Shown in pieces: positions 6,094 through 36,800 of a DNA stretch of 52,490 nt (position 1 is the first letter of the stretch; each line of letters opens with the position of its first letter). The position numbers and the translations under genes are program-made. A model generated the notes under the pieces. It saw only the letters and a list, made by a program, of their open reading frames with translations. It had not been told where the DNA came from and ran no database searches. Source of the DNA: a virus; IMG/VR virus record IMGVR_UViG_3300021091_000107, positions 1-52,490 of that record; one strand, written 5' to 3'.

Positions 6094-9000
6094 ATGGCAT
6101 CTAAGGTAAGAAATCTATCTGCTTTAATTGATAAGCAATTACCAAATTTCATCTCTACAGAATATCCTAAGTTCTCTACTTTTCTACAAAAGTATTATGA
6201 ACAATTAGAGTTACCTGGACAACCATTAGATTTAATTAATAATCTCTCAAAATATAGAGATATTGATACTTATGAAACTAAAATTCTACAGGAAAATACT
6301 ACTGTAGTATCAAATGTTAATCCATTAGACACAGTAATTACTGTTGCTGATACTAAATCTTTTCCAGATACCAATGGATATATCTTAATTGATGATGAAG
6401 CTATTTTCTATCGTAGCAAGACAAGTAATACTTTTGTAGGTTGTTATCGAAATATTAATGCCACTACAAAGTTGGGAGATCTTTATAGTAAACCAGATAT
6501 CAAAACGGTTAATTACGAAGATCTTGGAGAAGGTAAAACTCACTTATCTGGAAAAGTAGTATCTAATATTAGTAACTTATTTTTATACGCATTAGTTAAA
6601 AATTTTGAGAAAGAATATCTAGGATCTTTCCCAGAAAAAGATTTAAAAACACAAGTTGATAAATCGCTTCTAATTAAAAATATTAAAAAATTCTATGCTG
6701 TAAAAGGAACAGATCAATCAATTAGATTCATCTTCAACTCTATTGTAGCAAAAGATTCTAGTGATATTCCTACTGTATATTATCCAAACCAGAGCACGTA
6801 TAAAACCTCTAATGGTGAATGGATTAATAAGTATGCATTAAAAGTAAAAGTTCTTTCTGGAGATATCAATAAAATTATTGGAGAGAAATTAATCCAAAAT
6901 CAGAGTTTATCTGATACATCTATCAAGAATGCTTTTGGTGTAGTTGATAATATTGTAGATATCGGGGATGGATTTTATGAAGTTATTTTAGGAACTGATA
7001 CAGTTGTAGGTCAGTTTTCTGTAGCAAATAGAACCTATTTAACAAAATCAGTAAATAATACACAATCAGTTAACAGCAAAATTAATGTTTATTCTACTGC
7101 TGGATGGTCAAACACATCTGGCAGTATTATTGTTGGTAATGAGGTAATTGTTTTCAAAAATAAAAACATTAATCAATTTGAAGTAGAATCTAGAGGATCT
7201 ACTCCACAATATCATAATGTCAATACAATTGTTTATAATAACACTCCCGTATTTTCTTCATATATTGACAATAATGGAGCAACTCAACAAGTAAGATTAT
7301 TAGTTTTTGGTATTCTATACAATTTAACACCTTCTTCCTTAAAAGCACATTCAAAAGAAGGAGATTTTATTCAAATTTCCGAGCCAGGATTTGAGAGTAG
7401 AGATACTATTCTTTTTGATAGAATTTCAGGAAATTATAGATGGTTAATTAACGAAAATAACACAAATCCATCTTCACCTAATACTACAATAAATTCTGAT
7501 TTATCAGAAGTTTTAGTAAATGTTTCTGCTATTTTTGAAGATGACCAATATTACTACATTACATCTTCTGGATATCCAAGTCATGATATTGGAAAAACGA
7601 ATTGGAATATATCTTTAAAAGATCAACAAAAATTAAAATTAATCAGAAAATATCCAACCAGAACCACTGAAATCTACAAAACTCAACCTAATGAGGTAGG
7701 TATTTTAGTAAATGGAACTACAGTAAGAAGTTATAAAGATTCGAATCAAAATTTAGTTACTTTTGGCGAAATTACAAATATTGAAGTAACTAATAAAGGT
7801 AGTGGTTATAAAGATGTTCCATTTGTTTTAATACAAGATGGAGCTGGCGAGATAGTTGCTCAAGGAAAGGCAGTATTGAGTGGTGAAGTTATAGACAGAA
7901 TAGATGTTTTAGAATCTGGTTCTGGATTCTTTCCACCTGTTCCAAGTATCACCATTACATCTGGCAGAGGAGCCGTAGTAGAAGCAGTAGTTACTGGCGA
8001 TAAGGTATCTAAATTAAAAATTGTAAATCCTGGAGAATATTATTCCACTCCCCCTAAAATTATCATTAAAGATTCTCTTGGCAAGGGAAGATTTGCAAAT
8101 TATACTGCTGTTATTAATAATGCTGGTCAAATAGTTGATTTTGTTCAAAATGATGCTGGTAAATTCTATACGCAACAAAATGTATCTGTTGAAATAGTTC
8201 CAGTTGGTTCTGGTGCAACAGCAGTGTCAGTTGTTAGAACTTGGCGAAGAAATTTAGTATTTAAACATTCAAATTCTTTAGATACTAATTATGGATATTA
8301 CTTCCAAAATAATGATCCTTCAATTGGTTATGGATATTCTTACTTAGCAAATCCAAAATCTTTGAGATATGAACTAGGAGACAATATTTCTTCATTATTT
8401 GCAGAAACGTCTCAATTAGTTCATTCTCCTATTTTAGGATATGCTTTTGATGGAAATCCGATTTACGGTCCTTATGGATATTCTAATTCTTTAGATTCTA
8501 ATAGTGCTGTTGCTAGAATGACTTCCAGTTATTCTTTAAAACCGAATAGACTTGATGGTCCTTCAATAGATACTTATCCATTGAGTTCATTTGTTGAAGA
8601 TTTCGAATATATTCATCGATCTGGATCTTTAGACGAAAATAATGGAAGATTTTGTGTTACTCCCGAGTATCCATCTGGAACTTATGCATATTTTATGACG
8701 ATATCTGCAGATAATACTCCAGTATATCCATATGTTATAGGGGATAATTTTTATTCACTACCAGTTGATTCTAATTACAACAAAGTTATTTCTCAAAAAG
8801 ATTTACCCCAAAAAGTTAGAAGATTAATAACAGATAAAACACCAGAAAACGGATCTGGAGTATTAGCATATGTAGAATCTATCAATTCTGGGTCTTTAAA
8901 TGGTGTAGTTGTAGAATCCTCAACTAATACATTTGCTGTTGGCAGTGTAGTAGATATAGATTACACAAATACCGATGGATCAAACGCTGTTGCACAAGTT

Positions 9001-12000
9001 TCATCATTAAAAGGTAAAAATGTAGTTTCGATTGAATCTCGTCAAACCAAAGCATTAAAAATAACTACAGAAAATCCTGCTTACTTTTTTGAAAACGATA
9101 TTATCACACAAGAAGTAACTGGTGCAACAGGGCAAGTTATATCTAATGTTTTCGATGACAAAACTATAATTTTAAGAAATGTATCTGGAACTTTTAATAA
9201 TACAAATGAATTATTTTCTTCTATTAATGTCATAAACGTTGTAATTGATAAACCATCTGATTATTCGGCTAACTCTACCGTTTCATTGACAAATGGAAAG
9301 CAAGTAGTTATTTTAAAAGTTCAAAGTAATCGTCTTCAGGTATCATCTAATCCATTTGTAGACGGAGAACCAATTGTTTTCAGCAATACGTTTTCTAATA
9401 TTGTTGCCGATCAAATTTATTACGTTGTAAATGCAGAACCAAACAGATTTAAGGTAGCAACTACTCCGAATGGTTCTGCAATTACATTAACAAATAATAA
9501 TTCCCCTGGATCAGTTGCAACCAATCAAAAAGCAAAAGGAACTATTTTAGAATCAACTACTTTTAGAAATTCTATAAAAGTTCGTGTTTTACAGGGTCAA
9601 TTCACAACGGAACAAGGTTATTTTCTAAGAAGTTCTTCAATTAATGATAGTGTTGGTGGAAAAATTGTAACTATATTCAATTTAAGTTCAGACATCAAAC
9701 CAATTTCTATCAATAACAATATTGCAATTTTAAAAACGTCTGAAGATCACAAAATTGGTCAAGGAGAAAATTTCACAGTTAGTATCAATCCTAATGATAC
9801 TACTACAGAAACTACCATATTTGTAAGAAAACGAATTTATCAAACAGTTTCATTAAATGCTCCTAATTTTAATAAAAAATTAAACGATACTGGTATTGGT
9901 AATTTATTTGTTCTCAACAATGGAAGTTACAAAAATAATAATCAAATTGTTGGTGATTACGCTTCAACTACATCTGGAAATGGAACATTTACCAATATAG
10001 AACTAATTTTTGCTGATATTTCAAAATGTAGAGATTTTGAAGGCAGAATAGTAGGTGATTCCGAATTAGCAACTATAGGTAGACCAGGCAATGTTGATAA
10101 TGCAAGAGCTACTATTAGTGTTACTAATGGAGTTGTAACTAATATCGTTTTAACTTATAAAGGAAAACAATATAAGAGAGGTGATATTTTAACCGTTTCC
10201 CCATCTTCTCTCAATAAAGCAGGAACATCTACCAGATCTTTACTTCTAGATGTTCAACATGTTGGATTTGGTGTAAATGATACTACGCTATACTTATCAG
10301 ATGTAAATTATGTTTCAGAGAATGATTATCTTTTAGTTGGTGATGAAGTTGTTAAAGTAACCTCAGTAAATATTCCAAACTCATATGTTGTTGTATTGAG
10401 AGGTCAATACAACACTGATATTAAAGAACATTTTAATAATGAATCAGTTACAAATTATTTAAATCAATACACATTGCCAGTAAATTATCATTTAGGATTG
10501 AGTGATGCGGATGGATATGTATTGAATTATGATTTAAAGACACAACAAATTACAGTTGTATATGATGTTTCTAGAACTTTGGAAAATATCAATTCATTGG
10601 TTCCAAATTATGCTTTCTTTGATGATAGTGATCCTAAAAAATTAGTTACCGTAAAAGATAATTTAGAACCTGCATCATATAAGTTTGAATTTTCATATGA
10701 TGGAGTAACATGGCAAAGAAATCCTGTATTAAAATTACAAAATTACTACAAGTATAAATTAGATACTTCTCATTTCAGTCTAAGAGATAGTTTTATAGAG
10801 TTTTCTCCTAGTGGAAATTATAATATTTTAACTCTTGAGGCAAAACCAAATAATATTCTTCCAGGAAATACTGGTTCATTTATTACCTTCAAATCTGGAT
10901 TTGGCGCAGTGATTGCATCAAATCAATTCACCAATAAAGCTTTAGCAGATTTCAATACTTTCTTTTATTTTGATAAGAATGGTATTATTGATTCTGACAG
11001 ATCTTATGTAAGAATTATTGAAGATCCTTTGCAGGGAGAAAAGACAGCAGATTATGTTACGAACAATGAAATTGTTTATGAATTGTCTACTATTCCTCAA
11101 TATGATGGATCTGGAATTATAACATATACAACTACATCAAAATCTGCAGTAGGTGAAATTAACACAGTTTCTTTATTAAATCAAGGAACAGGATTCAATG
11201 AATTGCCAACAGTATTGGGAGTAAGACCATCTCCTAACAATGAATGTGTAGCAAGAGTTGTTTGGAATTCTCAATTTAAAAATATTTCTTCTATTGTAAT
11301 AGAAAATCCTGGCAAAAATTACATAGAACCAAAAGCAATATTATTAAATGCTACTGGTAAATTTGCGGAATTTAGTATTGTAAAAAATGCTGATGGATCT
11401 ATTGCGGGGGTAATTACAAAAAACAAAGGAATTGGTTACACAGTTGCTCCAGAAATAAGAATTATTGAATCTTCTCCTAAAATTTATTTTACATCATCTA
11501 CAATAGGGCAACCTAAAAATGTAAGAATTATTTTCAATGGAAAAGATTTTATTAAAGATCCAACTATTTCCAAAAAATTTACATCTAATAAAATTTTCTT
11601 GTTAAAAAATATTCAAGGAAATGGATATAAAGATGGGGAACAAATTACCCAAAAAGAAAATAATATTGTGATTGCGACTGGATATGTCGCCAAAAAAGGG
11701 TGGAAAAAAGGAACCAATATTTTAAGAATTGAAAGAGTAGAAGGTCAATTTAAAAATAATCTTCAGATTGTAGGATCATCAGATAATACTGTATCAACGT
11801 TAGTTTCTTCATACGAATCAGAATTTCATGCAGATATAAAATCTTATTTTGACAATCTTGGATTTTATGCTTCCGATAGATCAAAACTAAATTCTAATTA
11901 TCAAAAAATAGCGGATTCATATTTTTACCAAGATTATTCTTATGTTATTAAATCTAAGACACCAATAGATGTCTGGAGAGATTTAATCAAGCAAACTGTT

Positions 12001-15000
12001 CATCCTGCAGGATTTCAGTTGTTTGGTGAAGTTTCTATTGAATCACAAGGAACTAATAGAATTAATCCCGTTCAACCAAAAATCTCACATACTAGTGTTA
12101 TTGAAATATGGGATCCACAAAAAAATAAAATTACAGTAGAAAATACTTATAGAACTATTACCCAATCATCGATTAGAATTAGTGATACTAATGTTCTTAG
12201 AGGTAGAGGATCTGTTGTTGCATCTACTTATGATACTGGAGAAACTTTAGCATATGAATTTAAGTTGACTCCAGATTTCAATGGTTATTTCAATGCAAAT
12301 GGAAATAGGGCAGGAACAACAACATTTACAATAACATTGCTAGGATCAAATACTCCTTATTCAGTTAATAGCAAAGAAAATATTATTTTATCACTGGATG
12401 GTATTGTTCAAGAACCAGGAGTATCATACACAGTTTCTGGCAACCAACTAACATTTTCTAAAGCTCCATTAGGATATAGAAGTGTTTTTGGAAATCCAAT
12501 TACATTTGCACAATATAAAGAAGGTGTTGATAGTCCTGCTCAAAAAATTATTGGTAGAATTGTTAGATTTAAAGATTCTGGATTAAATACTCAATTTTTC
12601 AGAAAATTAAAAGATATATCTACACAATTTAATAATGTCGCCAAAGAATTTGATTTATATTACGAGGATAACACGCCAGTTAATTTATCTTCTGGTGAAA
12701 ATTTATTAGTTGCTATTGATGGTGTTATTCAACAAGCAGGTAGCACTCCATTATTGCCATTAGATAGAGCATACTATATTAAGAGAACTACTATACCAAA
12801 TAAAATTGTATTTGTAGAACCACCAAGAATCTTTAATGATATTAAACAATCTTTTTATGCATATTCTGTTGGTGGATATGAAAGATTGACACTCGACAAA
12901 ATTTATATTGATGGTATTAGAAAAGGACCATTTTTATTAAAATCTGCAGTTTCAGGAAAAACAGTAACTGTGGATGAAGATCTCAATGTCTTAGTTTTTG
13001 TTGATGGTGTTTTACAAAAAAGAAACAAATCGTATGTAATTCGTGGAGCAAATATTTCATTTACTGAACCAATAGATCGTAATCAAAAAGTAAATATAAT
13101 TTATCTTTATGGAAGAGATTATGTTAAATCATTAACATCTTTCAACTATGATAATATTCCATTTTTAAATGAATATGAAATTACTGTATCTGGAAATTAC
13201 ACCAGTGAACCCACCAAAATTCTTTTAGATTCTCCAATTAAGTCAGATTATGCGTATGGATATGTTAAAAGTGTGAGATTTAATGGAACTAATAGTATAA
13301 TTACGGTTCAAACTGATAATAGAAAATTTGCTTTAGGTGATGATTTAATAATTACCAATATTGCAGATTCTTTTTATAATTTAATTATTCCTACATCTAA
13401 TATAATTTCAATTTCTGATTTTGTTCGAGATGATAATTCTCAAGATGTTTTATCCAAATCAAATATAGCTTGGCTCTATAAAACGGTAAAAGACCCCGAA
13501 AGAGGTTTCTTGAGAAAAGGAGATTTTATTAAAATTGACGGTGAAACAGACTACAGAAAAATATTAAACATTCCGAATGTAGCAACAAAAACTGATTATC
13601 GTGATACAGACACATTAGGGTATTATGGAAAAATATCCACGACAAATTATAACGGAACTCCAATAGGTGAGGGTTTAGATATTGTTGCTCAAATTGAAAA
13701 TGGAAAAGTAGTTTCTCTATTGTGGAACCAAAAAGATTGGAATACATTTGAAACTAAAAAGATTCTTCCATCTTCACCTGGATATGGTTATGAAACTGCG
13801 CCACAATTAATATTTGTTTCTCAACCACTAAAAGACGAAGGCGGCACAATTGTGTCTCCTGCTGAAGGTGGTGGAGCAAAAGCATATGCAGTTGTTCATG
13901 ATGGAGAAATAATTGATATTGTTCTTTATGATCAAGGAAGTGGATACATTTCACCACCAAGAGTTTTTGTTGCTCGTGGATATGATGTTTTAAGAAAAGG
14001 AAGAAGTGTAGAAACCAATAAAATTTATGTTGGGATGTCACCTCAACTAGACTTAGCAACGTCTCTTTATATTTCAACAGGTGATAGACTTGATGCAGAT
14101 ATACCTCCCCAAATCTTTATTAGTTCATTCTTATTAGTTACTCCATTTGATTCGAGCAGAAAATTAACTGCAATTATACAAAGATATTTAAATGTAAAAA
14201 CTCCTTCGTCACAAGCACCAATAAATCATGTCAGTACACTTGATTTGAGAGCAAATGTTAGTTCTATAAGTGTTAGTGTAAATCTATTCCAATCATCGTT
14301 AGAAACTCCATTAAGTATTGTAGATTCACAAAACAAAGTTACAATTCAAGAATCGGCAAGATTTATAGAATCTTCGGTGGGATCTTTTGCAAAAGTTAAT
14401 TACTTACTAGCACATAGATCTCTCCATGAAACTGGAGCATACTTAGATGCACCAATGGATTTGGATGATGAGATTGTATTCGTTCCAACTACAGAAAAAT
14501 TTGCTAAGTTTGGCAAATTATTAATTGGAGATGAGATTGTATTTTACAATCAAAAATTATCAGATAGATTTATTTACATCACTAGGGGTTTGAATGGAAC
14601 TACTATAAAAGAACACCCAGCTGGTCAATTCCTCAGACAATTCTCTGATGACGTATCTATCATTAGTGCTGGTGTAAGTTCTGCAGAATCTGTAGCACAA
14701 ATTCAAGTTATTGGTGGCGGTGTAACAACTGCGAGTGTTGGTATTGTAGAAATTGTTCAGGTTGAAATAGATATTACTGAAATATCTTTAGATAATCAGT
14801 TTACTGAAATTTTACAAATTGCAAATTTTGTCAATTCTATTAATTCAACTAGAATTGAATCTATATTTAATAGTAATATTGGTATTTCTATTGCAACCAG
14901 TGAGAATCAAATATCTCGTCAAATCAAGACAATTCTCTCTTCTGGTATTGAAAATATTTCGGTCAATACTATTCAAAAAATTACACCAGCAACTGAAAGA

Positions 15001-15609
15001 TTCTATAAAACAGGATTTGTAGATTATTATGTTGAAAGTATTCTATTTACAAATCCAATTATACAAAGAAATGGTAATTCTGTAATATTAGAAAATCCTG
15101 GTAATTTGGTACATCAAAGATCAGGTAATATTGTTTCAATTAATAATGCACAACAAAATCCAGATGATCTTTTATCATATTCAATTGGCAATATTGGAAA
15201 TAATTTATCTATGTTGAATGAGTGGTATACAGTTGACGATGGATCTGCAAACGTTTCTGGATTAACTTTTAATGAAATTGATTATAATTATAGTCAATTT
15301 ACTCTTCGAGATTTTAGTGATAAAGGAATTTCTGCAATATCTCATTCAAGAATTATCTGGAATTTGACTTGCCCATCAATACAAAATCCCGTAGCAATAT
15401 CTTCATCAAATGGAACTATAGGATCTACTATTACCGTTCAAAATACATCATATTTCCCAAGCACAGGATACATTTACCATTCAAATGGAACTGTTTTTGG
15501 AGTCATTCAATATACAGGAAAAACATCAACTACATTTACTGGTTGCACTGTTTATTCTGGATCAAATACGATTTATACTGGTTCAGAGATAATACCATAT
15601 TTCATCTAA
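6094..15609 (+). CDS. Giant baseplate/tail protein in gene 7 position, with YHYH domain
   Basis: At 3171 residues this is about three times T4 gp7. Placing it at gp7 rests on synteny (25-6-X-8). The N-terminus (residues 1-60) is helical and typical of cyanophage wedge-like proteins. A YHYH-type domain lies near residues 777-892, with D-G-N-P-I-Y-G-P-Y-G-Y, L-D-E-N-N-G-R-F and P-E-Y-P-S-G-T-Y-A-Y-F. Glycine-rich beta repeats with G-S-G-Y/F and P-x-V occur near 562-665, 1685-1795 and 2555-2630. Modules with I/V-G-D-E-I/V-V and a following R-G or G-C turn recur near 75-127, 323-375, 1383-1449, 2785-2845 and, degenerate, at the C-terminus. No membrane segment was seen. It may combine wedge initiation with surface binding, which is inference. 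Confidence 0.8.
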   Translation: MASKVRNLSALIDKQLPNFISTEYPKFSTFLQKYYEQLELPGQPLDLINNLSKYRDIDTYETKILQENTTVVSNVNPLDTVITVADTKSFPDTNGYILIDDEAIFYRSKTSNTFVGCYRNINATTKLGDLYSKPDIKTVNYEDLGEGKTHLSGKVVSNISNLFLYALVKNFEKEYLGSFPEKDLKTQVDKSLLIKNIKKFYAVKGTDQSIRFIFNSIVAKDSSDIPTVYYPNQSTYKTSNGEWINKYALKVKVLSGDINKIIGEKLIQNQSLSDTSIKNAFGVVDNIVDIGDGFYEVILGTDTVVGQFSVANRTYLTKSVNNTQSVNSKINVYSTAGWSNTSGSIIVGNEVIVFKNKNINQFEVESRGSTPQYHNVNTIVYNNTPVFSSYIDNNGATQQVRLLVFGILYNLTPSSLKAHSKEGDFIQISEPGFESRDTILFDRISGNYRWLINENNTNPSSPNTTINSDLSEVLVNVSAIFEDDQYYYITSSGYPSHDIGKTNWNISLKDQQKLKLIRKYPTRTTEIYKTQPNEVGILVNGTTVRSYKDSNQNLVTFGEITNIEVTNKGSGYKDVPFVLIQDGAGEIVAQGKAVLSGEVIDRIDVLESGSGFFPPVPSITITSGRGAVVEAVVTGDKVSKLKIVNPGEYYSTPPKIIIKDSLGKGRFANYTAVINNAGQIVDFVQNDAGKFYTQQNVSVEIVPVGSGATAVSVVRTWRRNLVFKHSNSLDTNYGYYFQNNDPSIGYGYSYLANPKSLRYELGDNISSLFAETSQLVHSPILGYAFDGNPIYGPYGYSNSLDSNSAVARMTSSYSLKPNRLDGPSIDTYPLSSFVEDFEYIHRSGSLDENNGRFCVTPEYPSGTYAYFMTISADNTPVYPYVIGDNFYSLPVDSNYNKVISQKDLPQKVRRLITDKTPENGSGVLAYVESINSGSLNGVVVESSTNTFAVGSVVDIDYTNTDGSNAVAQVSSLKGKNVVSIESRQTKALKITTENPAYFFENDIITQEVTGATGQVISNVFDDKTIILRNVSGTFNNTNELFSSINVINVVIDKPSDYSANSTVSLTNGKQVVILKVQSNRLQVSSNPFVDGEPIVFSNTFSNIVADQIYYVVNAEPNRFKVATTPNGSAITLTNNNSPGSVATNQKAKGTILESTTFRNSIKVRVLQGQFTTEQGYFLRSSSINDSVGGKIVTIFNLSSDIKPISINNNIAILKTSEDHKIGQGENFTVSINPNDTTTETTIFVRKRIYQTVSLNAPNFNKKLNDTGIGNLFVLNNGSYKNNNQIVGDYASTTSGNGTFTNIELIFADISKCRDFEGRIVGDSELATIGRPGNVDNARATISVTNGVVTNIVLTYKGKQYKRGDILTVSPSSLNKAGTSTRSLLLDVQHVGFGVNDTTLYLSDVNYVSENDYLLVGDEVVKVTSVNIPNSYVVVLRGQYNTDIKEHFNNESVTNYLNQYTLPVNYHLGLSDADGYVLNYDLKTQQITVVYDVSRTLENINSLVPNYAFFDDSDPKKLVTVKDNLEPASYKFEFSYDGVTWQRNPVLKLQNYYKYKLDTSHFSLRDSFIEFSPSGNYNILTLEAKPNNILPGNTGSFITFKSGFGAVIASNQFTNKALADFNTFFYFDKNGIIDSDRSYVRIIEDPLQGEKTADYVTNNEIVYELSTIPQYDGSGIITYTTTSKSAVGEINTVSLLNQGTGFNELPTVLGVRPSPNNECVARVVWNSQFKNISSIVIENPGKNYIEPKAILLNATGKFAEFSIVKNADGSIAGVITKNKGIGYTVAPEIRIIESSPKIYFTSSTIGQPKNVRIIFNGKDFIKDPTISKKFTSNKIFLLKNIQGNGYKDGEQITQKENNIVIATGYVAKKGWKKGTNILRIERVEGQFKNNLQIVGSSDNTVSTLVSSYESEFHADIKSYFDNLGFYASDRSKLNSNYQKIADSYFYQDYSYVIKSKTPIDVWRDLIKQTVHPAGFQLFGEVSIESQGTNRINPVQPKISHTSVIEIWDPQKNKITVENTYRTITQSSIRISDTNVLRGRGSVVASTYDTGETLAYEFKLTPDFNGYFNANGNRAGTTTFTITLLGSNTPYSVNSKENIILSLDGIVQEPGVSYTVSGNQLTFSKAPLGYRSVFGNPITFAQYKEGVDSPAQKIIGRIVRFKDSGLNTQFFRKLKDISTQFNNVAKEFDLYYEDNTPVNLSSGENLLVAIDGVIQQAGSTPLLPLDRAYYIKRTTIPNKIVFVEPPRIFNDIKQSFYAYSVGGYERLTLDKIYIDGIRKGPFLLKSAVSGKTVTVDEDLNVLVFVDGVLQKRNKSYVIRGANISFTEPIDRNQKVNIIYLYGRDYVKSLTSFNYDNIPFLNEYEITVSGNYTSEPTKILLDSPIKSDYAYGYVKSVRFNGTNSIITVQTDNRKFALGDDLIITNIADSFYNLIIPTSNIISISDFVRDDNSQDVLSKSNIAWLYKTVKDPERGFLRKGDFIKIDGETDYRKILNIPNVATKTDYRDTDTLGYYGKISTTNYNGTPIGEGLDIVAQIENGKVVSLLWNQKDWNTFETKKILPSSPGYGYETAPQLIFVSQPLKDEGGTIVSPAEGGGAKAYAVVHDGEIIDIVLYDQGSGYISPPRVFVARGYDVLRKGRSVETNKIYVGMSPQLDLATSLYISTGDRLDADIPPQIFISSFLLVTPFDSSRKLTAIIQRYLNVKTPSSQAPINHVSTLDLRANVSSISVSVNLFQSSLETPLSIVDSQNKVTIQESARFIESSVGSFAKVNYLLAHRSLHETGAYLDAPMDLDDEIVFVPTTEKFAKFGKLLIGDEIVFYNQKLSDRFIYITRGLNGTTIKEHPAGQFLRQFSDDVSIISAGVSSAESVAQIQVIGGGVTTASVGIVEIVQVEIDITEISLDNQFTEILQIANFVNSINSTRIESIFNSNIGISIATSENQISRQIKTILSSGIENISVNTIQKITPATERFYKTGFVDYYVESILFTNPIIQRNGNSVILENPGNLVHQRSGNIVSINNAQQNPDDLLSYSIGNIGNNLSMLNEWYTVDDGSANVSGLTFNEIDYNYSQFTLRDFSDKGISAISHSRIIWNLTCPSIQNPVAISSSNGTIGSTITVQNTSYFPSTGYIYHSNGTVFGVIQYTGKTSTTFTGCTVYSGSNTIYTGSEIIPYFI

Positions 15610-15613
15610 ACCT

Positions 15614-15627
15614 TATAAATATAAATA
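15614..15627 (+). promoter_or_regulatory. Overlapping tandem late promoters before gene 8
   Basis: TATAAATA occurs at 15614-15621 and again at 15620-15627, sharing two bases. Both lie in the 42-base gap before gene 8. GGAGA at 15639-15643 is the ribosome site for ATG 15652. Confidence 0.7.
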
Positions 15628-15651
15628 AAATACCGTTCGGAGAACTATTAA

Positions 15652-17412
15652 ATGGCTGCTATCATTTCTGAAAAGTTCAGAATTTTCAACGCCAAGCAAT
15701 TTCTGGAATCTCTTTCAGAAGGTACTGGCGATACTTCCTCAGACCGATCAAGAATGTATTTCTTTGTCGGCAGACCTCAAGCATGGAAAGCATTTGTAGA
15801 AATTTATGCTGTAAGCTCAACTAATTTCTCTGTTGGAGAAGAAGTTTATGTTGGTGCTAGTTTAGGTGCTGCAACTTTCAAAGGAACTGTTGCTGAAGTA
15901 AATCCCAATAGTCTACTTCTAACAGGTATTGGTCCTACAGTAAGTGCTACTCCTGCTGCTGGAGCAACTTTAACTGGAAACACTTCAACTGCAACTGCTA
16001 AAGTTGGCGTTTACAGATATGCAACAGAAGAAATTCCTACTGCTCCTATCGACAACCAAGAAGAAAAATTTGATGTTTATGATGATATGATTGCTCTTAA
16101 GAGAGTAACTTCATCATATGCAAGACACGTAATCAGACGTTATAACTGGGATTTAACTGTAAATCCTAAGTTTGATATGTGGAGAGCAGATTATTCCGCT
16201 CTAAAACTAACTGCTACTGGCGAATCTTCAATTGCTACAGCAAAATATGCTGTTATGAATAATCAGTATGAAGTTTTTGCTTGTCTATACAATGGAACAA
16301 ATCCTTCCAACCTGAATGGTCGAAACGCAACATACACTCCAACAACTACTCCAGTTTCAGGAGAAGGAACGTATTCTGGGGATATTTACACCGAACCAAG
16401 TGGAACCGCTGGTTATGTTTGGAAATACATGTATACTATTCCAACAGATGATGTTATTAAGTTCCTTTCATCAGACTTCATGCCAATCGTTTTAAATGGC
16501 ACTGTTCAGTCTGCTGCTGTTGATGGTGCTATTCAAGTAGCTCTACTAAAAGATGCTGGCGGAAATCTCCCAACTTCCACAACTTTATATGCTGCTATTT
16601 TAGGTGACGGTTCTGGTGGTAAAGTTTCTATTACTACTAATGGTTCTGGTGCTATTACAGGTGTTTCTGTAATTGCTGCTGGTTCTGGTTATACCTATGC
16701 TAATGTTGTTCTTAAGAATGGTTATCTTTACACTAACTCTTCATTGACAACGGCAGCTACAGTTGCTGCAAACGCATTTGGTTCAATTGAAGTTATTATT
16801 CCTCCTCAAGGTGGTCATGGTGCAGATCCAGTAATGGAATTGAATTCCAAGCGTGTAATGATGAATATTCGTCTTACATACGCAGAAGGTTCTGGTGATT
16901 TCCCCGTAGATAACGATTTCAGAAGAATTGGAATTGTTCAAGATCCTCTACAGTATGGTTCTAGCAATTACCTAACAGTCGATAACGCATCTGCGCTATA
17001 TGCTGTTAAATTGACTGGAGTTAATGGAAACTTTGTTGCAGATGAAATTATCACACAAACAAATAGTGGATTAGTTTCAAAAGGAACAGTGGTTTCTTGG
17101 ACACTAGATTCAGGAAGCACTACTGCAGGTGTTCTTAAGTATTACCAATCTGCTGAACAACATGCAGATAATGGTGTGGTTAGAGCATTTGTTTCAACTG
17201 GAGCAAACGCTATCACAGGTGCTACTAGCGGAAGATCAGGAAACGTTGATACTGCATATGCAGCTTCACTCCTTGGTGTTAATTTCGCTGCTGGTTTGGC
17301 GACACCAGAAGTAAAAGCAAATTCTGGAGAAGCAATCTATGTAGAGAATAGAAGACTAATCACAAGAGCTCCTGACCAAATTGAAGATATTAAATTAGTT
17401 ATTGAATTTTGA
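15652..17412 (+). CDS. gp8: Baseplate wedge protein gp8
   Basis: The 586-residue protein is larger than T4 gp8 (about 334) but has the cyanophage gp8 pattern: N-terminal F-R-I-F-N-A-K-Q-F, then R-M-Y-F-F-V-G-R-P near residues 34-42, and W-R-A-D-Y-S-A-L and Y-V-W-K-Y-M-Y-T-I-P segments. Extra length comes from inserted beta regions, including a G-S-G-Y repeat near residues 319-353 that is shared with other tail proteins here. In T4, gp8 dimers bind gp7, gp6 and gp10 in each wedge. The gene has its own pair of late promoters and a GGAGA ribosome site. Confidence 0.88.
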   Translation: MAAIISEKFRIFNAKQFLESLSEGTGDTSSDRSRMYFFVGRPQAWKAFVEIYAVSSTNFSVGEEVYVGASLGAATFKGTVAEVNPNSLLLTGIGPTVSATPAAGATLTGNTSTATAKVGVYRYATEEIPTAPIDNQEEKFDVYDDMIALKRVTSSYARHVIRRYNWDLTVNPKFDMWRADYSALKLTATGESSIATAKYAVMNNQYEVFACLYNGTNPSNLNGRNATYTPTTTPVSGEGTYSGDIYTEPSGTAGYVWKYMYTIPTDDVIKFLSSDFMPIVLNGTVQSAAVDGAIQVALLKDAGGNLPTSTTLYAAILGDGSGGKVSITTNGSGAITGVSVIAAGSGYTYANVVLKNGYLYTNSSLTTAATVAANAFGSIEVIIPPQGGHGADPVMELNSKRVMMNIRLTYAEGSGDFPVDNDFRRIGIVQDPLQYGSSNYLTVDNASALYAVKLTGVNGNFVADEIITQTNSGLVSKGTVVSWTLDSGSTTAGVLKYYQSAEQHADNGVVRAFVSTGANAITGATSGRSGNVDTAYAASLLGVNFAAGLATPEVKANSGEAIYVENRRLITRAPDQIEDIKLVIEF

Positions 17413-17414
17413 TT

Positions 17415-17422
17415 TATAAATT
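17415..17422 (+). promoter_or_regulatory. Weak late promoter candidate
   Basis: TATAAATT differs by one base from the late box and lies in the 52-base gap before the 17465 gene. The mismatch and AT-rich context make it less certain than the other gaps. Confidence 0.4.
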
Positions 17423-17464
17423 TATTAATATTCCCCACTCATAGTAAAGAGAGCCTGAGCTAAA

Positions 17465-25630: not shown

Positions 25631-25848
25631 TGGATCGCATCAAAGTTCTTGACCACGACTATCTCGTGAGAGATAAAGATACTGGTGCCATTATAAATAC
25701 TGATAAAAGTGTATTTGAAGATGCTAGAAAACTACGTAATGGTAGTGCATCTATTAAAAAACTTCAAAGTGATGTGGAAGATTTAAAGAATGAACTCTCA
25801 GATATCAAAAATCTTTTAAGAGAACTCATAAGAAATGGCAATACTTAG
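25630..25848 (+). CDS. Small coiled-coil linker protein
   Basis: The start overlaps the previous stop codon as TAATG, and the 3' end overlaps the next gene by 14 bases. The 72-residue protein ends in a clear heptad region ([20 protein letters not shown]). Lying between two large tail genes, it is probably a small structural or assembly partner. The family function is not known to me. Confidence 0.65.
25692..25699 (+). promoter_or_regulatory. Intragenic late promoter box
   Basis: An exact TATAAATA lies inside the 72-residue gene, about 135 bases before the 1471-residue tail gene. It could give that gene its own late transcript. It may also be a chance match in AT-rich coding DNA. Confidence 0.35.
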
Positions 25849-28800
25849 AAATGTAGCTAAGACCGATACTCTGGAAATTCAGAGACAAAAGATAAATCAG
25901 ATAGCATCTGATTTATTTACGGTTCAAACTTCCGTAGGTGAAGGAGCATTTAGTATGAGTGATGGAACTGTTCAGCAGCCATCACTATTTTTTACTAATG
26001 CTACTGATGTTGGTGTTTTTAGGGGTTCTAGTGGAAAACAGTTATTTATTGCAGCTGAAGGTAGTGCAATTGCCAAGTTTGACAAAAATAATTTAACATC
26101 TTTAAAAGATTTTAAAACTTTAATCTCTGCTGTTCCAAACGGAGCTAATGGAATCACTATTACAAATCCAGGATCTCAATACAGTTCAGGAACTTTTTCT
26201 TCTGTTCCTTTAACTGGTGGTTCTGGAACTGGAATAAAAGCTTCTCTTATTGTAAGAGCTATAACTGGAAATATTACAAATGGTGGTAGTGGATATGTTG
26301 GCGGATCTTACGTTAGCGTTCCCCTAACAGGTGGATCTGGAACTGGAGCTACTGCAGACATTACAGTTTCTCCTTTTTCTGGTTCTATTCAAACTGGTGG
26401 ATCTGGTGGAAATATTGGCGGTAATGCTTCTCAAATATTCACTAACGTATCTTTGACTGGTGGATCTGGATCTGGAATGAGAGCCGATATTACTGTCACT
26501 ACAGCAGGTCAAATCGTAGCTGTTACTGCTGTTAATATTGTCAATCAAGGATCTGGTTATCAAACTGGAGATGTTTTAACAGCACTTTCTAATACAATTG
26601 GTGGTGTTACAGGATTTCAATATGTTATTAATGGTGTTGGAAACGTCACCCAAGTTCAAATATTATTAGCAAATACTGGATATCAAGTAGGAAACGTTTT
26701 ATCAGCTAGCAATACAAATCTTGGTGGTTCTGGATCTGGGTTTCAATTCACTGTAACTGGTGTTGGATCAGTAATTGATGCTTCAGTTACCGATGGTGGT
26801 GATGGATATATCATAGGAGATCAACTTTCTGTAAATGCAGTAGAACTTACACCCGCAGAAACTTGGTATGTAAGAATGTGGATGACACAATTATTTGTGT
26901 TTTCTGGAACATTACCAACAACAGGATTCAATGTAGGAGATACATTAACATATGCTGGCGAAGGAAGAACCGTTGTAAAAAAATGGTTAAATGCACAAAA
27001 TAGAGTAGAAGCAGTTGCTGTTAGAGCTGGCGCTGAAGACGGTAATACTATTGAGTTTTTTCCTGGGTTATCTGCAAGTGATGGAAATGGAAACAGTGCT
27101 ACTGTTGGATCATCTAGGTCAGAATTAAACTATTACTTCTCATCAAACCAAAATGGTCCTTTTGAAAACATAAAAGATTTCACTTTCCAAAAAAACAAAC
27201 GTTATATATTCAACCAAACACATCCTTCGAATAATACTCACCCAATACGATTTAGCACAACTGCTGATGGTATTCATACCGTATTGAGTGGGCAAGGAGC
27301 GCAAAGAGATTTTGGTGATTTATATGAAGGAAGTGAAGTAAATTATGAATACACTCCTTTTGATGTTTCCATAATTCCAAATGACAACACCCCAACAACT
27401 TTATATTATTATTGTGGTAATGGATTTGGAGATCCAGAAAATCAACACATTAATGAGGGTGGTTTTGACGGCAGAGAAGGAAAAATTACTATTAGTGGAA
27501 CAGCGACAGTATCTGGTAGTGGATTGACGATCACTATTGGTGCAGTTAACACTGCTTCCAATATTATTCTTAAGAAGAACGGAGAATCTACATTAGGTGC
27601 TACAACAGCTTCGTCATTAACATTGACTGGTGAATTATCAGTTGGTTCTGCAACTACGTTGATTGGTAATTTAAATATAGGATATAATAAATTTAGCGTT
27701 GCATCATCGAGTGGAAATACAAGTATTGCTGGTTCATTAACTGTACAAGGCAGTCTTTCCTTCTTGGCAGATGCTGCTTTTGGTGGAACATTATATGTAG
27801 ATTCCACCAATAATAGAGTTTCAATAAATCTAGATCCTAATGTAAATCCATTGACTTATGATTTTGAAGTTAGTGGAGAAGCTAAAGTAAATGATAATGT
27901 TAGATTAGCGACCGATTCTTCTGCTTTTGTTAGAATAGGTAGTGGATTAACTGGAACTGATAAACTTCAAGTCAGTGGGAATATATTATGTTCTGATGGA
28001 AAATATCTTGCTCCACCAACTTCAGATGTTTTAAATCCTGTTTATACTTTTTCAGGAAATACCAGAGTAGGATTATTATTAAATAATACTAATAATAGTA
28101 TGTCTGTAACTGGATTGAGTGGTGAAATACTCAACCTCCAAAAAAATCTCATCACAACATATAGAAAAATAAACTGTGATTATGTTACCGTAAATAGTTC
28201 AAAAATTACGATACCTGGATCTGGTTACGCTGCTGGAAGTTACGGTGGTGTATTAGCCTCTGGCGGAACTGGTTCTGGATTAGTAGCAAATCTTATTGTT
28301 TCATTTTATTTACCTCTGGGAGAAATTAATACCGTAGGAAATGTATCTGCTGCCGATTCAACAAGAGTAGCGGGTACATATAATATTACTTCTGCCAACT
28401 ATACAACAAATGGTTCTGGAACTGGTGCAACTTTCCAAATAGTTGTTGATGGAAGTGGAGCATGTGTAGTAACTGTTACCAATGGGGGAGAGGGATACAC
28501 GGTAGGAGATACCATCACCGTAAGTGGATCTATTTTATCTCCTGGTGCATTAACTCCTGCGTCTAATCTAACTTTTATTGCTGCAGGATTTACGTCTGAT
28601 CAAGGAAGTGGATATACAGATGGAACATATACATCTGTTCCTTTAACTGGAGGATCTGGAACAGGTGCAATAGCCGAAATAGTAATTTCTGCTGGATCTG
28701 TAACTAGTATTGTTGTTACAGAGAATGGAATAAATTATGCAATCAACGATACATTATCTTTCAATCACACTTCTTTAATACCACCCCTTGGTGGAACATC

Positions 28801-30250
28801 AGTAGCACCATCAGTAGCAGCATCATTAAAAATAAGGTATCTCGGAACATTATCTAAAGTAACTATTGTTGATTTTGGAGAAGGTTATAAACAAAATGAT
28901 ATTTTAGAGTTTCCTTCTATTGGTGGAACTCAAGCTGTCACTGCAAAATATACTATATTATCAACATCATCAACTACAAATGTAGAAATTAATAATTCAG
29001 ATGGTAGTATTTTAGCGAAATCATTAAGAACTACTGGATCTGGTATTTTAATAGATAATAACCTTTCAATAGATAGCAATATCATTTCATCTACTCAAAA
29101 TGAAGATATTTTTGTTGCTCCAGGATCTTCATCTAAATTGCTATCTGTTTCTGGAACTGGTGGTATCAAACTTCCTGTAGGTAACTCTACTAATAGACCA
29201 TCAGCAGCAACAGCAGGTATTATTCGTTATAATACCCAAACATCTCAATATGAAGGATCAAATGGAATAAACTTCATTTCCCTTGGCGGTGTTAGGGATG
29301 TTGATGGTAACACTTTCATTATTGCCGAAGAAACCGTAGGAGAAAATGATAATACTCTATACTTCTTCAATGATGGTTACAATTCTGCTAGATTCAAAAG
29401 AACAGAAGTTGAACTAGTTACGGCAAATAAAATATCAGTTAGAGATACTGATGGTAAACTGTTGTGGAAACCAACTACCGCATTTAGTTTAAATGCTTTT
29501 GTTTATTATGAAGATAACATTTATCAAGTAACAACCGCAGGAACTACAGGAACTATAGCGCCAACACATACTTCTGGTTCTGACTCAAATGGAAGTGCAA
29601 CTCTAACTTATGTAAGTGATAGTTATGGAAGTTTAGAAATCAGGGGAGATGAGATTAAGTTAGGAACAAGAGTAAATATTGACAATAAGTTAGATATTTA
29701 CGCCTATAATACAAATAATCTAATATTTGAATCTGCTTTAAATATTGCCAAGATTGCATTTGGTAATAACCTAGGAGTTCCAGATACCTTAGTTTCTTTT
29801 AATTCAACGAATGCAGCGGTACAAATCAACAGAAATTTTGATACATCAAATCCAGAAGATAATATTTCATTAGTTGACAAAACTCTCAAGTTTCTTGAGT
29901 TGACTGATGTTCGTTATGAAACAACATCTGTTGGATTAGTCAAAGGTGCTTCTAATATTGCTACTTCAACAGTATATAATCCAACTGTTCATAGTTCAGC
30001 AAAAATCATTGTTACTGCACATAACTTAACTACAGATGATAAACAAATGATTGAATACAATGTAGTTCATAAAAATACCGATATCTTTGCTGTTCAATAT
30101 GGCAATACTGTGACAAATGGAGATTTATTCGTTGGATCTTTTGACTTTGATGGATCTAATAACATTCGTTTTACTGCAACATTAGCATCTAGTGTTGCAA
30201 CTGGTAATAATGTAAAAGTGGTTGTAACCAAAACTCAAATTAAAAAGTAA
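25835..30250 (+). CDS. Tail fibre-like virion protein with beta repeats
   Basis: The 1471-residue product has an N-terminal domain typical of cyanophage virion proteins ([15 protein letters not shown] near residues 10-24). Repeats of the form G-S-G-Y[16 protein letters not shown] follow near 112-225 and again near 794-955. A segment near 431-553 resembles a cupredoxin-like beta sandwich. Residues near 1215-1260 carry a [10 protein letters not shown] ... P-T-H-T-S-G module also found in the 2769-residue protein. The C-terminal part is beta-rich without a recognised chaperone domain. It is probably a fibre or tail decoration; the exact T4 counterpart is unclear. Confidence 0.75.
26164..26500 (+). 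repeat. Glycine-rich coding repeats, first block
   Basis: Three imperfect units encode variants of [11 protein letters not shown]. Their DNA shares near-identical cores such as GGTGGATCTGGAACTGG at about 26331 and close relatives near 26216 and 26459. They are protein repeats in phase, not a CRISPR array. Confidence 0.7.
28216..28689 (+). repeat. Glycine-rich coding repeats, second block
   Basis: Two further units of the same type (G-S-G-Y-A-A-G-S-Y and G-S-G-Y-T-D-G-T-Y, each followed by a Gly/Ser/Thr turn) lie about 2 kb downstream in the same gene. A related unit is in the 2769-residue gene near 36610-36690. Confidence 0.6.
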
Positions 30251-30256
30251 TACGCC

Positions 30257-30766: not shown

Positions 30767-30773
30767 CTAAATA
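30766..30773 (+). promoter_or_regulatory. Variant late promoter box
   Basis: ACTAAATA, a relaxed form of the late box that I recall from marine cyanophages, directly follows the stop codon of the previous gene. It lies in the 50-base gap before the 2769-residue tail gene. GGAG at 30801-30804 serves translation. Confidence 0.4.
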
Positions 30774-30816
30774 ATAAAGAATAATATAACAAAATCTGTT
30801 GGAGCACTAGATCAAG

Positions 30817-33800
30817 ATGAGTTTAGAATTTAATGCAGATAAGCAGATAATCAAATCTACAACTCCAAAAGTAGTTGGTCAAAATGATTTCACAATTCGA
30901 TCAGGATCTGGTTCCGACGAGAAAGAAGTTGTTCGAGTTCAATTAGACCCATCCACCAAGTTACCTCGTGTTGGTATTAATAGAACTGGTAGAAGAGTTG
31001 AAAAAATTGTTATTAATACTGGATTCAATGGATCTGGATATACGACTTCTCCTTCAGTAGTTTTAAGTGCTCCTCAACTATCTGGTGGTATTCAAGCATT
31101 AGCTTCTGCTGTAACTTCATCTGGTTCAGTTGTTGCTATTATTATCGATAATCCTGGCGATGGATATACTTCTGCGCCTACAGTAACCATATCAGGGGGA
31201 GGCGGAAATGGTGCAGCTGCAACTGCAGTTCTAGATACAGTTGATTATGAATTAGATGTTAATGGTGCTATTAGAACATCTACTTCAATTATTTCTGATA
31301 CTGCTCGTATCCTCAACTTGGATATCGACAACTTTGTTACTGCTGATGCTAAGTTTCGTGCTCCTGGATTAAAAACATATTCAAATAATACTGGGACTCT
31401 TTGGGTTCCAAATACTTCCGTATCTAAAGGAAGCACTAGATATTTCGGTAATAATATCTACGAAGCAACAGTAACGGGAATTACAGATTCAAATCCACCC
31501 ATACATATTGATGGGGAATCTGCAAACGGAACTGCTGCTTTTAGACACATTGGTTACAGAGTATCAAGTCCTCTCCTTAAATACTATAATGAGGATATGA
31601 AATATCCTCGTTCTGTAACACCACCTCTAGGAGATAGAACGGAAAAGATTGCTACTACTGAGTATGTTCTCAATCTCGCAACAAATGATGTTGGTGGACG
31701 TGTTTATGTTTCCCAACAGATTGGTAGTGACCTAAACGACGGTAGATCAGCAGTAAACCCAGTCAGATCAATCAAAAGAGCTTGCCAGATTGCTTCGCAA
31801 ACGGTTAACGTAAAAGAAACTGTTGTTGTTTCTGGTGGTGATTATGTAGAAGATAACCCCATTTCTATTCCACCAGATTGTTCGATTGTTGGTGATAACT
31901 TACGTTTAGTTATTGTAAGACCACAAAATCCCCGTAAACACATGTTTAAGTTTGGGGATAAGAACTATGTAACTGGTATTACGTTTAGAGATAAGATTGA
32001 TAGTAATGGAGATCCTATTGCAACATGGGATTATGCGATGGTGTTTGATGACAAACAACGCATTTGCTATGATGTAAACAGTGGTGGGGATTATGGAAGA
32101 AACTTTCCAGTTGGTCATCAAATCTTTGGTGTTCCAAAGATTCGTGTTACTTTCCAAACTAATACTGGATTGACTGCTCTTGCAGTCAATGAATATGTGA
32201 CAGGTGTAAACACTGGAGCGGTTGGTAGAGTAAAGTCTGTTACATTTAATTCTGGTAATGTCACTGGAACTGTAGATGTTCAAGTAACTAGCGGTTCTTT
32301 CCAAACAGGTGAAACATTTACTTATCCTGGAGAAGGAGCATCTCCATGGACAGCAAATACTACGCTAGTTATAAATTCTTTAGTTTATTCTGGAAATAAT
32401 GTTTATTCAGTAACAACTGCAGGAACAACAGCGGCGCCAGCACCAACGCATACAACTGGAGCACAATCAAACGGAACAGCAACATTAACTTGGATTAGAA
32501 ATGTTTATTCATTTGTTGCTACTGATGTAAAATCAATCCGAGCAGAAGGCGAAGTTGTATCAAATAATAAAGATTTGGTATCTACCCTTCCCATCACTAG
32601 AATAGATGCTTCGCAACAAGCAAATCCAGATATTGATGGCATCATCATTTACACAAATCCCCTTACTGGAAGACAAAATACACATGATTTCAAAGAAAAT
32701 GAAGAAATTGAAATCAGTGGATTGCCTACTTCAGCGCCAGATCTTTCTTGGTTGAACGGAAAACAAAGAGTTTATAAAGTTCTTTATGATGCTGATGGAA
32801 GATCAAGAAGGTTTGTTATTCCTAAAAAATCTGCAAGTTTCGTTGATGTAAACTATCAACCATCTTTAGCGACGGTAAAAAAATATTCTTATTCTATTAC
32901 CCTTACTCTTCTCAACTCACCGAACAAGTTTTCAACAACACCATATGTTGCTCAAAGGTTCCAAGATGCTTGTAATCTAATCAGAAATAATATTGAGTTT
33001 ATTAAAGATGAAACGTATTTAAAAATCGCAGATGAGTTTAGTCCCAACTTCTCTGTATCATCAATCAAAGCAACAACTGGAACAGGAGCAGATGCTGGTT
33101 ATGTAGTTTTACAAGTTACTACATCTGGCAATCATGGTTTCTTTGTTAGTGATACCGTTACCATTTACAATAATGGATTGAATAATGCTATCAATGCTCA
33201 ATATACAGTAACTAATCGTGTAAGTGCTACAGTATTTGAAGTTAAATATTTTGGTAGTATTTCTACACTTGGATTAACATCTGATAACACGTATACCACT
33301 GGTTCAACCCCAGCACTATCAGCATCTGCTTACGTTCAAAGATCATTCGTCATTCCTAATGAAACAAAATGCCGTAGAGATATTGGGCATTTTGTCAATG
33401 CAATCATTATGGATCTTGAATATGGCGGAAACTATCATTGTGTTGAAGCTGCTGAGTATTACAGAACTGGTGGTCAAATAGGATTTGTTGGTAATGAAAT
33501 CGCAGAAACAGTAAGAGCATTTGAGATTGCTAGACAACTATGTATTCTCGCAATGCGTCGTTGGAGAACAGGAAACGGGCAACTATCAGATCCATTATAT
33601 ACACCACTTTATTCTTCTATTCCTAGATACTTTGATCCAACTATAACCCAAGATACTACATCTCCAGCTTGTGCTAATGTTAAGAGTGCTATCGATACAT
33701 TAGCATATGTTTTTGTCGAGGTTTTGTGCAACAACGCATCTAGTCAACAAGTAGAAGCTGGATATTTAATTCAAAGAAATGCTGATTTTATTGCTTCAGA

Positions 33801-36800
33801 AGCACTTGGGTTTGCAAAAAATACTTTTCCTACATTAGGATTATCTACTGATCAAGAAAGAAAGTGCAAAAGAGATATCCGTCTTGTTCTTTCTGGATTA
33901 TCTAGAGATCTTATTCTCGGTGGTAATGCTGGAATAGTTGTTGCTGCGGAATCATATTTTACTGGTACTGCTCTCACTGGTCTACCAGCAAATGAACTTG
34001 CTGCTACTAGATACGCTTTCGAGAAGGTAAGAGATCTTGCTATCCTCGCAATGAGAAACTGGAAGACAGGAACGAGTGGAACGGGACCAAACTATACACC
34101 AGTATACGAAACTACTATTCCTATTTTTATTGATCCAGCTGTCTTAGCTGATCCTACTACTCCTACGTGTGCTAGTATTAAGATTGCTATCGAAACAGAG
34201 ATGACTCTGCTTGATAATATTCTTGGTGGTACTATTCTTCCTGGAGCAACAACAAAAACATATGGAACTCTGTATTCTCCAACGATTACATATCCAGAAG
34301 GAGTTCTGTATGATGCAAACAACAAATATATTACCCCCAGAGCAACATGGGATGATTTACCATACATTGAAGCATCACCATATACACAAAACTCATCAGT
34401 TATTTCATTCTTAGGTGGTAATGGTGCGGAGGTTGATGGAAATAAAGTTGCCCAACCTAACTGCCCATTCCCAGGACTAGAACTAAATGGAACTGCATCT
34501 TATCCAAATCAGGGTAAGTCGATGGTTGCATCAGCATTTACTATTGTTTCTTTTGGTGGAACAGGATACAGAGTTATCAATGATGGATATGTTCAGTTGG
34601 TTTCTGTGTTCGTTATCTTCTGTGCCGATGGTGTATTCTGCGATAGTGGCGGATATGCTTCTGTCACGAACTCTGCTACCAACTTTGGTGTCTATGCTCT
34701 ACGAGCTAGAGGATTTAGAGAAGATCCATATGTCTTTGATATTGGAACGATTACAAATGTTACACAATCTGTAACAGGTAAAACAGTATTTACTGTTAGT
34801 GGATTAGGAAGAAGACCACTGGAGCATTATGTGGTTAAGATTGATGGTTATCAAAATACCAACACAGCAATCGAATATTTCGTAGATACTGTAACTGGCG
34901 TTACTGTTGGTCCACCTTTCACAGCAACACTGACACTAAACGATACTGCTAGTTTCACAAAAATAGCAACGAATACCGTAGTTGGTAACTCAATCGCAGA
35001 GTTTGCTGGCAAAACGATTAAACTACATAGACCTTCGATCGTTAACTCCTCATCACACACTTGGGAGTTTGCTGGATCTGGAACTAACTACAATGCTTTG
35101 CCAGAAAACGGCGGAACCAAAATCGAAGCATATGAACAGGTATCAGAAAACTATGGTCGTGTTTACACGTCAGGAACTGATGAACTTGGAGACTTCAAGG
35201 TAGGTTACTTTGCTCGCATTGAAAACAGAACTGGTGCTATCACCTTTACTGGAACTGTTACCATTTCCGAAGTTGAGTTCCTTAAACTAAAAGGTGGTGA
35301 CGTTGTTGTTACTGGTTTCGATGCTTCTCCAACATTAGGTGGTGCATTCTCAACGGACTCAAAACTACCAACACAAAAAGCGGTTAAGGATTATATCTCA
35401 AATAACCTAGGTCCATATCTAAACAAACCATACTCCACAAACGCTGTTCCTAGGGCGCTTGTAGAACTCACAGACAGCGGTAAGATCTCTATTGACCAAA
35501 TCCCTGCCCTAAGACCATTTAACGTCTTCACGGTGGCAAATCAAGCGGCAAGACTGGCATTAGAAGGAGCTCTTGCTGGAGACATTGCTATCCAAACAGA
35601 TAGCACACAATCTTTTATTCTTAATAACGATTTAACTAGTTTGTATCTTGGATTTGCTGTAAATACAAGTTTAGAGTTTACGATAGGAAATATTTTCACT
35701 GGTTCTGTTACAGGTGGTCAGATTCAGGCAACAGAATATAGACAAGGTGTTGTTTATAAGTTAAACATTACAAATGCTGGATCTGGATATACTGTTGCTC
35801 CCACAGTTACAATCAGTGGTGGTAATCCTCAGGGAGGAGCAGTTTCAGCAACTGCTGTTGCTACTATTGCAAATGGTCAGATAGTAACACTAACCGTTAC
35901 AGAAAACAATGGTTTCATAGGAGGAAAAGGTTATACAACTGCACCCACAGTAACGATTTCTGGTCCAGGTGGTGCTGGTGTTACTGCTACAGGAGCTGCA
36001 TTATTAGAAAGCAGATTATACGGAACAATCGTCAATAACCAAAAAATTGAAGATACTGATACTATTACTTCCAGCAATAGTCCTACAGGAACTGTAGTTG
36101 ATATCAGTAGAGTAGTGAACACATCTTCATCATTATCAACTAACTGGGTATCACTATCAGCTACTCAGATTTCTGCAGATGCTATTACATCTGGTATTGT
36201 TTCGACATCTCGTCTGGCAAGTAACTCAGCAGAAGCAAACTCATTTACTTTCTTGAGAGGTGACCAAGCATATGCTCCTGTTGTTCAATCTATCAAGGGT
36301 TCAGAAACAAGATATTTTGCTAAGTTAACTCAAGCAGTATCTGCAGGTTCTAGTACATTTGTGTTTGCAACAAATGCAAGCATATTAAGAGGTCATGGGA
36401 TTGTTTCAATCACAGGTATTGCTGCTAACACTACTGTAACTAATGTTCTTACTGCTAGTGGTTCTACTACCGTAACATTAAACAACCCAGTAACGGCAAA
36501 CATTGCAACCAGTACTGTTATTGAGTTTATTAGACCACCATCTCCTCTGATTTTAGATACTGCTTATACTATTGGTAGTTTTGTTGACAGTGTAGTTATT
36601 GTATCAGGAGGAACTGGATTTACTAACGGAATATATTATGATGTTACTTTAACGGGTGGTACTGGAACTGGATTAAAAGCAAATATTACAGTTACTGGTA
36701 ATACAATAACTTCAGTAGTAGTTACAAATGGAGGTATCAACTACACAGGTGATTATAATATCACTTCAAACCCAGTTGGTATTGGATCGGGTTCAGGTTT

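Follow-up and report, generated by a model that had tools for sequence, protein, structure and literature searches.

The 52.5-kb virus record IMGVR_UViG_3300021091_000107, the whole of which (52,490 nucleotides) is called the window here, contains T4-like cyanophage tail genes, and glycine-rich G-S-G-Y units recur in five of its virion proteins. This raises the question of whether one homologous module is built into all five proteins and what it does in the virion. We found that the module, a cassette of two units, is real, homologous and widespread, and that it represents a new family lacking a model; its kind, the insertable virion surface domains, is already known. On balance, we favor the reading that it is an old homologous insertable domain akin to domain I of gp18, the T4 tail sheath protein, and that it would serve as a docking knob.

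The five carriers are a gp7-like baseplate wedge protein, gp8, a DUF4815 virion protein, a virion structural protein of 1471 residues and a tail fibre protein of 2769 residues (Table 1). Their open reading frames were confirmed, with the lengths given in an earlier note on this DNA, and a motif search recovered G-x-G-Y units in all five where that note had placed them. Each unit comprises approximately 40 residues with the consensus V-x-x-I-x-V-x-N-x-G-S-G-Y-x-x-x-P-x-V-x-I-x-G-G-x-G-x-G-A-x-A-x-A, and the spacing from unit to unit is mostly 35-50 residues. A hidden Markov model (HMM) of the unit was iterated on cyanophage proteins, with all gp7 and gp8 sequences excluded from training; it counted 11 units in the 1471-residue protein, five in the fibre and two in the DUF4815 protein. 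In an independent test on the excluded proteins, it reached up to 31 bits for gp7 of other phages, 12.2 bits for gp7 of the window and 21 bits for Syn9 gp8, whereas the top score across 30 shuffled proteomes was 9.6 bits. No units were detected with this HMM in the T4 tail proteins tested. A two-unit profile, in which nearly all rows came from other viruses and bacteria and the only window sequence was the first fibre cassette, matched 16 places in the record. Its best E-values were 3.2e-30 and 6.9e-21 for the fibre, 7.6e-16 for gp7, 2.1e-15 for the DUF4815 protein and 1.0e-11 for the 1471-residue protein.

The gp8 copy of the window is degenerate and fell below the threshold on its own (independent E-value, iE, 0.03); it was recognized only through gp8 of Syn9, Sf-FR1 and S-CAM3, which score at that site. 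As evident from the alignment, four cyanophage gp8 proteins contain the insert, with canonical units in Syn9, whereas T4 gp8 has no insert there. Leave-one-protein-out tests that started from just 12-18 raw seeds gave a weak signal for gp7 and failed on gp8, and the enlarged profile resolved gp7. With this reservation about gp8, the earlier claim of a repeat in five proteins holds for all of them, at profile scores far above those of shuffled sequences. The copy number and the unit itself had to be corrected: gp7 contains at least four copies rather than one, and two units together make up the natural domain.

The earlier note had also considered that the units might be unrelated low-complexity segments, that is, glycine-rich sequence that arose by convergence and without homology. 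The units are indeed rich in glycine and serine, and some matches received large composition-bias corrections. However, the spacing is fixed at 35-45 residues, the G, Y and A positions are invariant, shuffled sequences fail to score, gp7 copies with less glycine still match, and the fold model is confident; we consider convergence scarcely credible. The units are homologous across genes, and the matches of the unit HMM and the two-unit profile bear out the proposal that one module is common to the wedge, gp8 and fibre proteins.

Inserts come as pairs of units in the fibre, DUF4815, gp8 and gp14 proteins. AlphaFold2, run on fibre cassette 1 with 48 aligned cassettes, returned a model with six strands, three per unit, at a predicted local distance difference test score (pLDDT) of 91 and a predicted template modelling score (pTM) of 0.79; the four-unit array of gp7 was modelled with 12 strands at a pLDDT of 90. 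Two units are thus predicted to form one compact six-stranded β domain of approximately 85 residues, and the fold prediction suggested earlier for a single unit has yielded a confident model in which the pair is the domain. The first glycine and the tyrosine of G-S-G-Y were invariant across the 48 cassettes. The cassettes of the five proteins had no Pfam or NCBIfam match, and no immunoglobulin (Ig)-like or FN3 model of these databases (BIG_2, I-set, FN3) matched the five proteins or the cassettes; NCBIfam was searched with three of the five proteins.

Foldseek matched the model to many predicted phage proteins with the same repeat. Upon DALI-like realignment, the fibre cassette superposed on T4 gp18 residues 99-188 with a Z-score of 5.5 and a root mean square deviation of 2.6-3.0 Å over 69-73 residues, and the next unrelated entry had a Z-score of 2.1. 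The gp7 model likewise placed T4 gp18 (3fo8) on top (Z-score of 7.0; 2.6 Å over 77 residues), followed by the Klebsiella KP1 sheath (6.0) and, for part of the model, Ig C domains (4.7). Domain I of T4 gp18 comprises residues 98-188 and is a six-stranded barrel with a helix (PMC3004832); the limits of the matched span fit this domain, and domain I is the only clear structural match (Z < 8) of two independent predicted models. In sheath proteins orthologous to T4 gp18, canonical units are located exactly at the domain I site, with two units in L064, two in L084, three in L058 and four in L088. These four sheath genes form a natural series of repeat expansion at one site. Because direct sequence comparison is weak, the link to domain I is an inference from position plus structure, and on this footing the cassette is likely of the same kind as domain I, its likely solved relative.

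A second candidate relative is the Dpo31 tailspike. Cassette profile A2 matched its residues 446-505 (E 8e-5), a span inside the D3* domain (434-536), which is inserted, protruding and Ig-like and has a distant likeness to sugar-binding domains (PMC13317679). This match suggests that the cassette is probably of the same kind as D3*. The Dpo31 entries 8ck1, 28lx and 28mg were absent among the Foldseek and DALI-like matches, although their presence in the structure library was unchecked.

Several results weigh against these assignments. Z-scores under 8, such as those for gp18, can reflect a common arrangement of strands; no PDB entry reached significance with Foldseek (best E 1.6); T4 domain I compared with the cassette by sequence was not significant alone (hhalign P 0.013; unit HMM 9.7 bits); and profile A4 matched Dpo31 only at E 0.03. 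The fold class is also unsettled, as D3* has been described as Ig-like and T4 domain I as a six-stranded barrel with a helix. In bacteria, where SusD and other proteins carry cassettes as described below, these cannot be fibre docks. Filing the cassette under PF22639 (Gp18_dom_I) was ruled out: none of the four cassettes searched matched this family, which T4 gp18 itself matches at 96-188.

For the docking role, which the earlier note had suggested, T4 offers an analogy. Domain I protrudes, makes no sheath-sheath contacts and binds the baseplate and the long fibres when these are retracted, and the gp18 mutations G106S, S175F and A178V inhibit fibre retraction (PMC3004832). We found that the mutated residues fit the T4 sequence only if the initial Met is uncounted; G106 is then the first glycine of T4 G-S-N-Y, which aligns with G-S-G-Y of the unit, while S175 and A178 lie within S-S-G-L-A-A, aligned by eye to G-G-x-G-A-x-A of the second unit. 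Domain I biology and a retraction mutation at the motif glycine therefore favor a docking knob, and such a role in cyanophages is plausible by analogy. Built as one compact domain into many unrelated virion proteins, a pair of units would project from the virion surface, where it may keep the long fibres and parts of the baseplate close to the tail in the manner of T4 domain I, perhaps with weak contact to host or matrix glycans. Its spread over wedge, sheath, neck and fibre proteins would reflect repeated ancient insertion and allelic recombination, with no ongoing exchange between genes. An extension of this model, in which the sheath, gp14 neck, gp7/gp8 wedge and fibre domains of T4-like cyanophages form a continuous parking rail whose domain-domain contacts hold the retracted fibres and which gain or loss in gp14 would tune, is rather improbable.

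The domain is widely distributed. Whole-record searches, the count that the earlier note had envisaged, covered 12 cyanophage genomes, every one of which had 11-18 matches, and T4, which had none. Cyanophage carriers include gp5, gp7, gp8, DUF4815 proteins, gp14, fibres and S-PM2 gp18, and the DUF4815 orthologues hold the cassette near the site used in the window. Beyond cyanophages, lambda-like tail-tube proteins encoded in Pseudomonas genomes contain the domain as an insert, and it occurred with sheath proteins in one rhizobial (Metarhizobium) and one Stenotrophomonas genome. A two-unit cassette is also present in Pedobacter and Sphingobacterium, in proteins of the SusD family (L128, L164 and comparable loci of Bacteroidota), and many other bacterial proteins carry cassettes as well.

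The SusD insertions are consistent with the main rival to docking, in which the cassettes would adhere weakly to glycans and keep the phage attached to the host envelope or exopolysaccharide, a role suggested for the Ig-like domains of many phages; a survey of sheath proteins proposed adhesion for extra Ig-like sheath domains. However, carriers of the cassette include the neck protein gp14, which sits far from the host, as well as lambda-like tail-tube proteins; no conserved site for sugars was found, and the conserved G, Y, P and A residues look structural. Adhesion is therefore a serious possibility, to which we give appreciably less credence than to docking. It is unlikely that the cassettes act only as stiffeners or spacers, adding length and strength to large virion proteins. 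The tandem arrays of four to six units in gp7 and the 1471-residue protein and the varying unit number of orthologous sheaths would fit this role, but no direct evidence for it was found, and a single two-unit insert in many carriers, with clean presence or absence in gp14, suits a knob better than a spacer.

Domain sharing also affects annotation. One short protein matched up to 20 PHROG families at once because the families share the domain; PHROG matches to head, neck and tail families were accordingly rejected as gene identity and read as the shared domain. In NC_070961.1, a fibre gene (148168-156978) is annotated as "baseplate wedge subunit", possibly for this reason.

The earlier note suggested that the module had been exchanged between genes, perhaps by recombination. 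As a recent process, this is not supported. The nearest neighbours of the units were mostly in the same gene of other phages, not in other genes of their own genome. Units of different genes had a similarity of 0.1206 when they came from one genome and 0.1212 when they came from two (difference -0.0005; permutation standard deviation 0.0023). At shared residues, the same codon was used in 48.2% of cases within genomes, where 44.3% was expected, and in 46.1% between genomes, where 43.4% was expected, an excess of 0.039 versus 0.027. There is no within-genome excess in protein similarity and almost none in codons, and therefore no sign of recent inter-gene exchange. Ongoing gene conversion or recombination that spreads and homogenizes the units could still be argued from neighbouring genes that hold the same subtype and from a 39-bp stretch, 90% identical, shared by the 1471-residue protein gene (26203-26241) and the fibre gene (36642-36680; E 1e-8). 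In view of the protein and codon comparisons, we judge it very improbable; inter-gene conversion was rejected at both levels and is largely refuted. The cassette copies are old and inherited with their gene.

A second module, W...V...[18 protein letters not shown]...NGSATLTYV, has one copy in the 1471-residue protein (29485-29609) and two in the fibre (32366-32491 and approximately 31390-31550), with lookalikes in orthologous proteins of other phages. The copies at 29485-29609 and 32366-32491 share 74.6% identity across 126 bp (E 7.5e-17), which exceeds the DNA match of any cassette pair, and this module is therefore a better candidate for inter-gene exchange than the cassettes.

In gp14, by contrast, exchange within one gene from phage to phage is seen. 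In a sample of 230 gp14 proteins, biased by the queries used, lengths were bimodal: 78 proteins had approximately 290 residues and no units, and the other 152 had 370-390 residues with units. S-RIM32 gp14 contains the cassette, although its backbone is 83.5% identical to that of Syn1, which lacks it. The supported branches of a backbone tree with 86 rows require three changes, compared with 24.7 with shuffled labels, and two regains are nested within a cassette-less clade. The best reading of this tree is that the cassette was lost once and then regained twice (S-RIM32 and L407). Between Syn9-like and S-RIM32-like gp14, the cassette is 69% identical and the backbone 48%; this higher conservation fits exchange and would also fit slower change.

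In the window, the tail gene set comprises gp25, gp6, the gp7-like wedge protein, gp8, the DUF4815 protein, virion proteins of 1471 and 169 residues and the fibre; cultured phages of Synechococcus, among them ACG-2014j, S-PM2 and Syn1, are syntenic relatives. A YHYH domain (PF14240, E 3.7e-30) lies at 8335-8709 in gp7, soon after the four-unit array. The fibre gene has an internal duplication (33598-33699 and 34093-34197; 69.5% over 105 bp, E 1e-5) encoding a conserved CKRDI...GGN...AAE.Y module, and its C-terminal part (38197-38406) is similar to tail fibre protein S (5yvq, E 6.4e-7).

Table 1. Carrier genes and cassettes in the window (E, two-unit profile unless stated otherwise).
Feature	Position	Strand	Evidence
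gp7-like baseplate wedge protein, 3171 residues, at least 4 copies	6094..15609	+	
gp7 four-unit array, two cassettes (7747-7977 and 7981-8238)	7747..8238	+	iE 2.2e-15, 4.4e-11; AlphaFold2 pLDDT 90, 12 strands
gp7 single unit	10084..10221	+	E 4.1e-6
gp7 two to three units	11128..11472	+	E 1.1e-9, 3.4e-8
gp7 two-unit cassette	13756..13980	+	E 5.6e-11
gp8 baseplate wedge protein, 586 residues	15652..17412	+	Pfam Phage-Gp8, phrog_438
gp8 degenerate two-unit cassette, lacking in T4 gp8	16516..16737	+	Aligned to canonical Syn9 gp8; window copy alone iE 0.03
DUF4815 virion protein, 2721 residues	17465..25630	+	Pfam PF16075
DUF4815 protein two-unit cassette	23288..23548	+	E 2.1e-15; cyanophage orthologues carry one near the same place
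Virion structural protein, 1471 residues, phrog_6005, longest arrays	25835..30250	+	
1471-residue protein first array, [10 protein letters not shown] subtype, about six units	26126..26839	+	Unit HMM 11-42 bits; E 1.1e-8
1471-residue protein second array, about five units	28187..28999	+	Unit HMM 17-34 bits; E 1.0e-11
Tail fibre protein, 2769 residues, phrog_5342	30817..39126	+	
Fibre cassette 1, two units, modelled domain	30967..31239	+	E 3.2e-30; AlphaFold2 pLDDT 91, pTM 0.79
Fibre cassette 2, two units	35731..35994	+	E 6.9e-21
Fibre cassette 3	36568..36810	+	E 2.2e-9

These results tie a widespread repeat that no family model covers to T4 genetics and to solved structures, which makes its role testable; the link to gp18 domain I, in particular, makes the docking idea testable. 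They also carry a warning for annotation, as many PHROG families share the domain and a fibre is labelled as a baseplate wedge subunit. The loss and regain of a whole domain in a neck protein clearly illustrates how the virions of abundant marine viruses evolve in modules.

Compared with known systems, the cassette resembles Dpo31 D3* (PDB 28lx, 28mg, 8ck1; PMC13317679) in its profile match; D3* is an inserted, protruding domain of about 100 residues and is monomeric when alone. It differs in being called Ig-like and in sitting on a podovirus β-helix depolymerase, and the sequence match is moderate and profile-dependent. Like the promiscuous Ig-like domains of phage virion proteins (treated for sheaths in PMC9230969), the cassette is an optional insert in many unrelated virion proteins that is gained and lost between phages, and the gp14 cassette in particular is an optional, horizontally exchanged insertion of that sort. 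Unlike them, it has no Pfam Ig-like or FN3 match, contains an internal GSGY repeat and shows a weaker structural match to Ig C domains (Z-score up to 4.7). With T4 gp18 domain I (PF22639; PDB 3foa, 3fo8) it shares a similar size, six predicted strands, the insertion site in orthologous sheaths and the motif glycine that is mutated in a fibre-retraction mutant, whereas in the T4 copy a helix is present and most of the glycine-rich motif is missing, and PF22639 misses the cassette. T4 carries the domain in its sheath only, while cyanophages carry it in many proteins.
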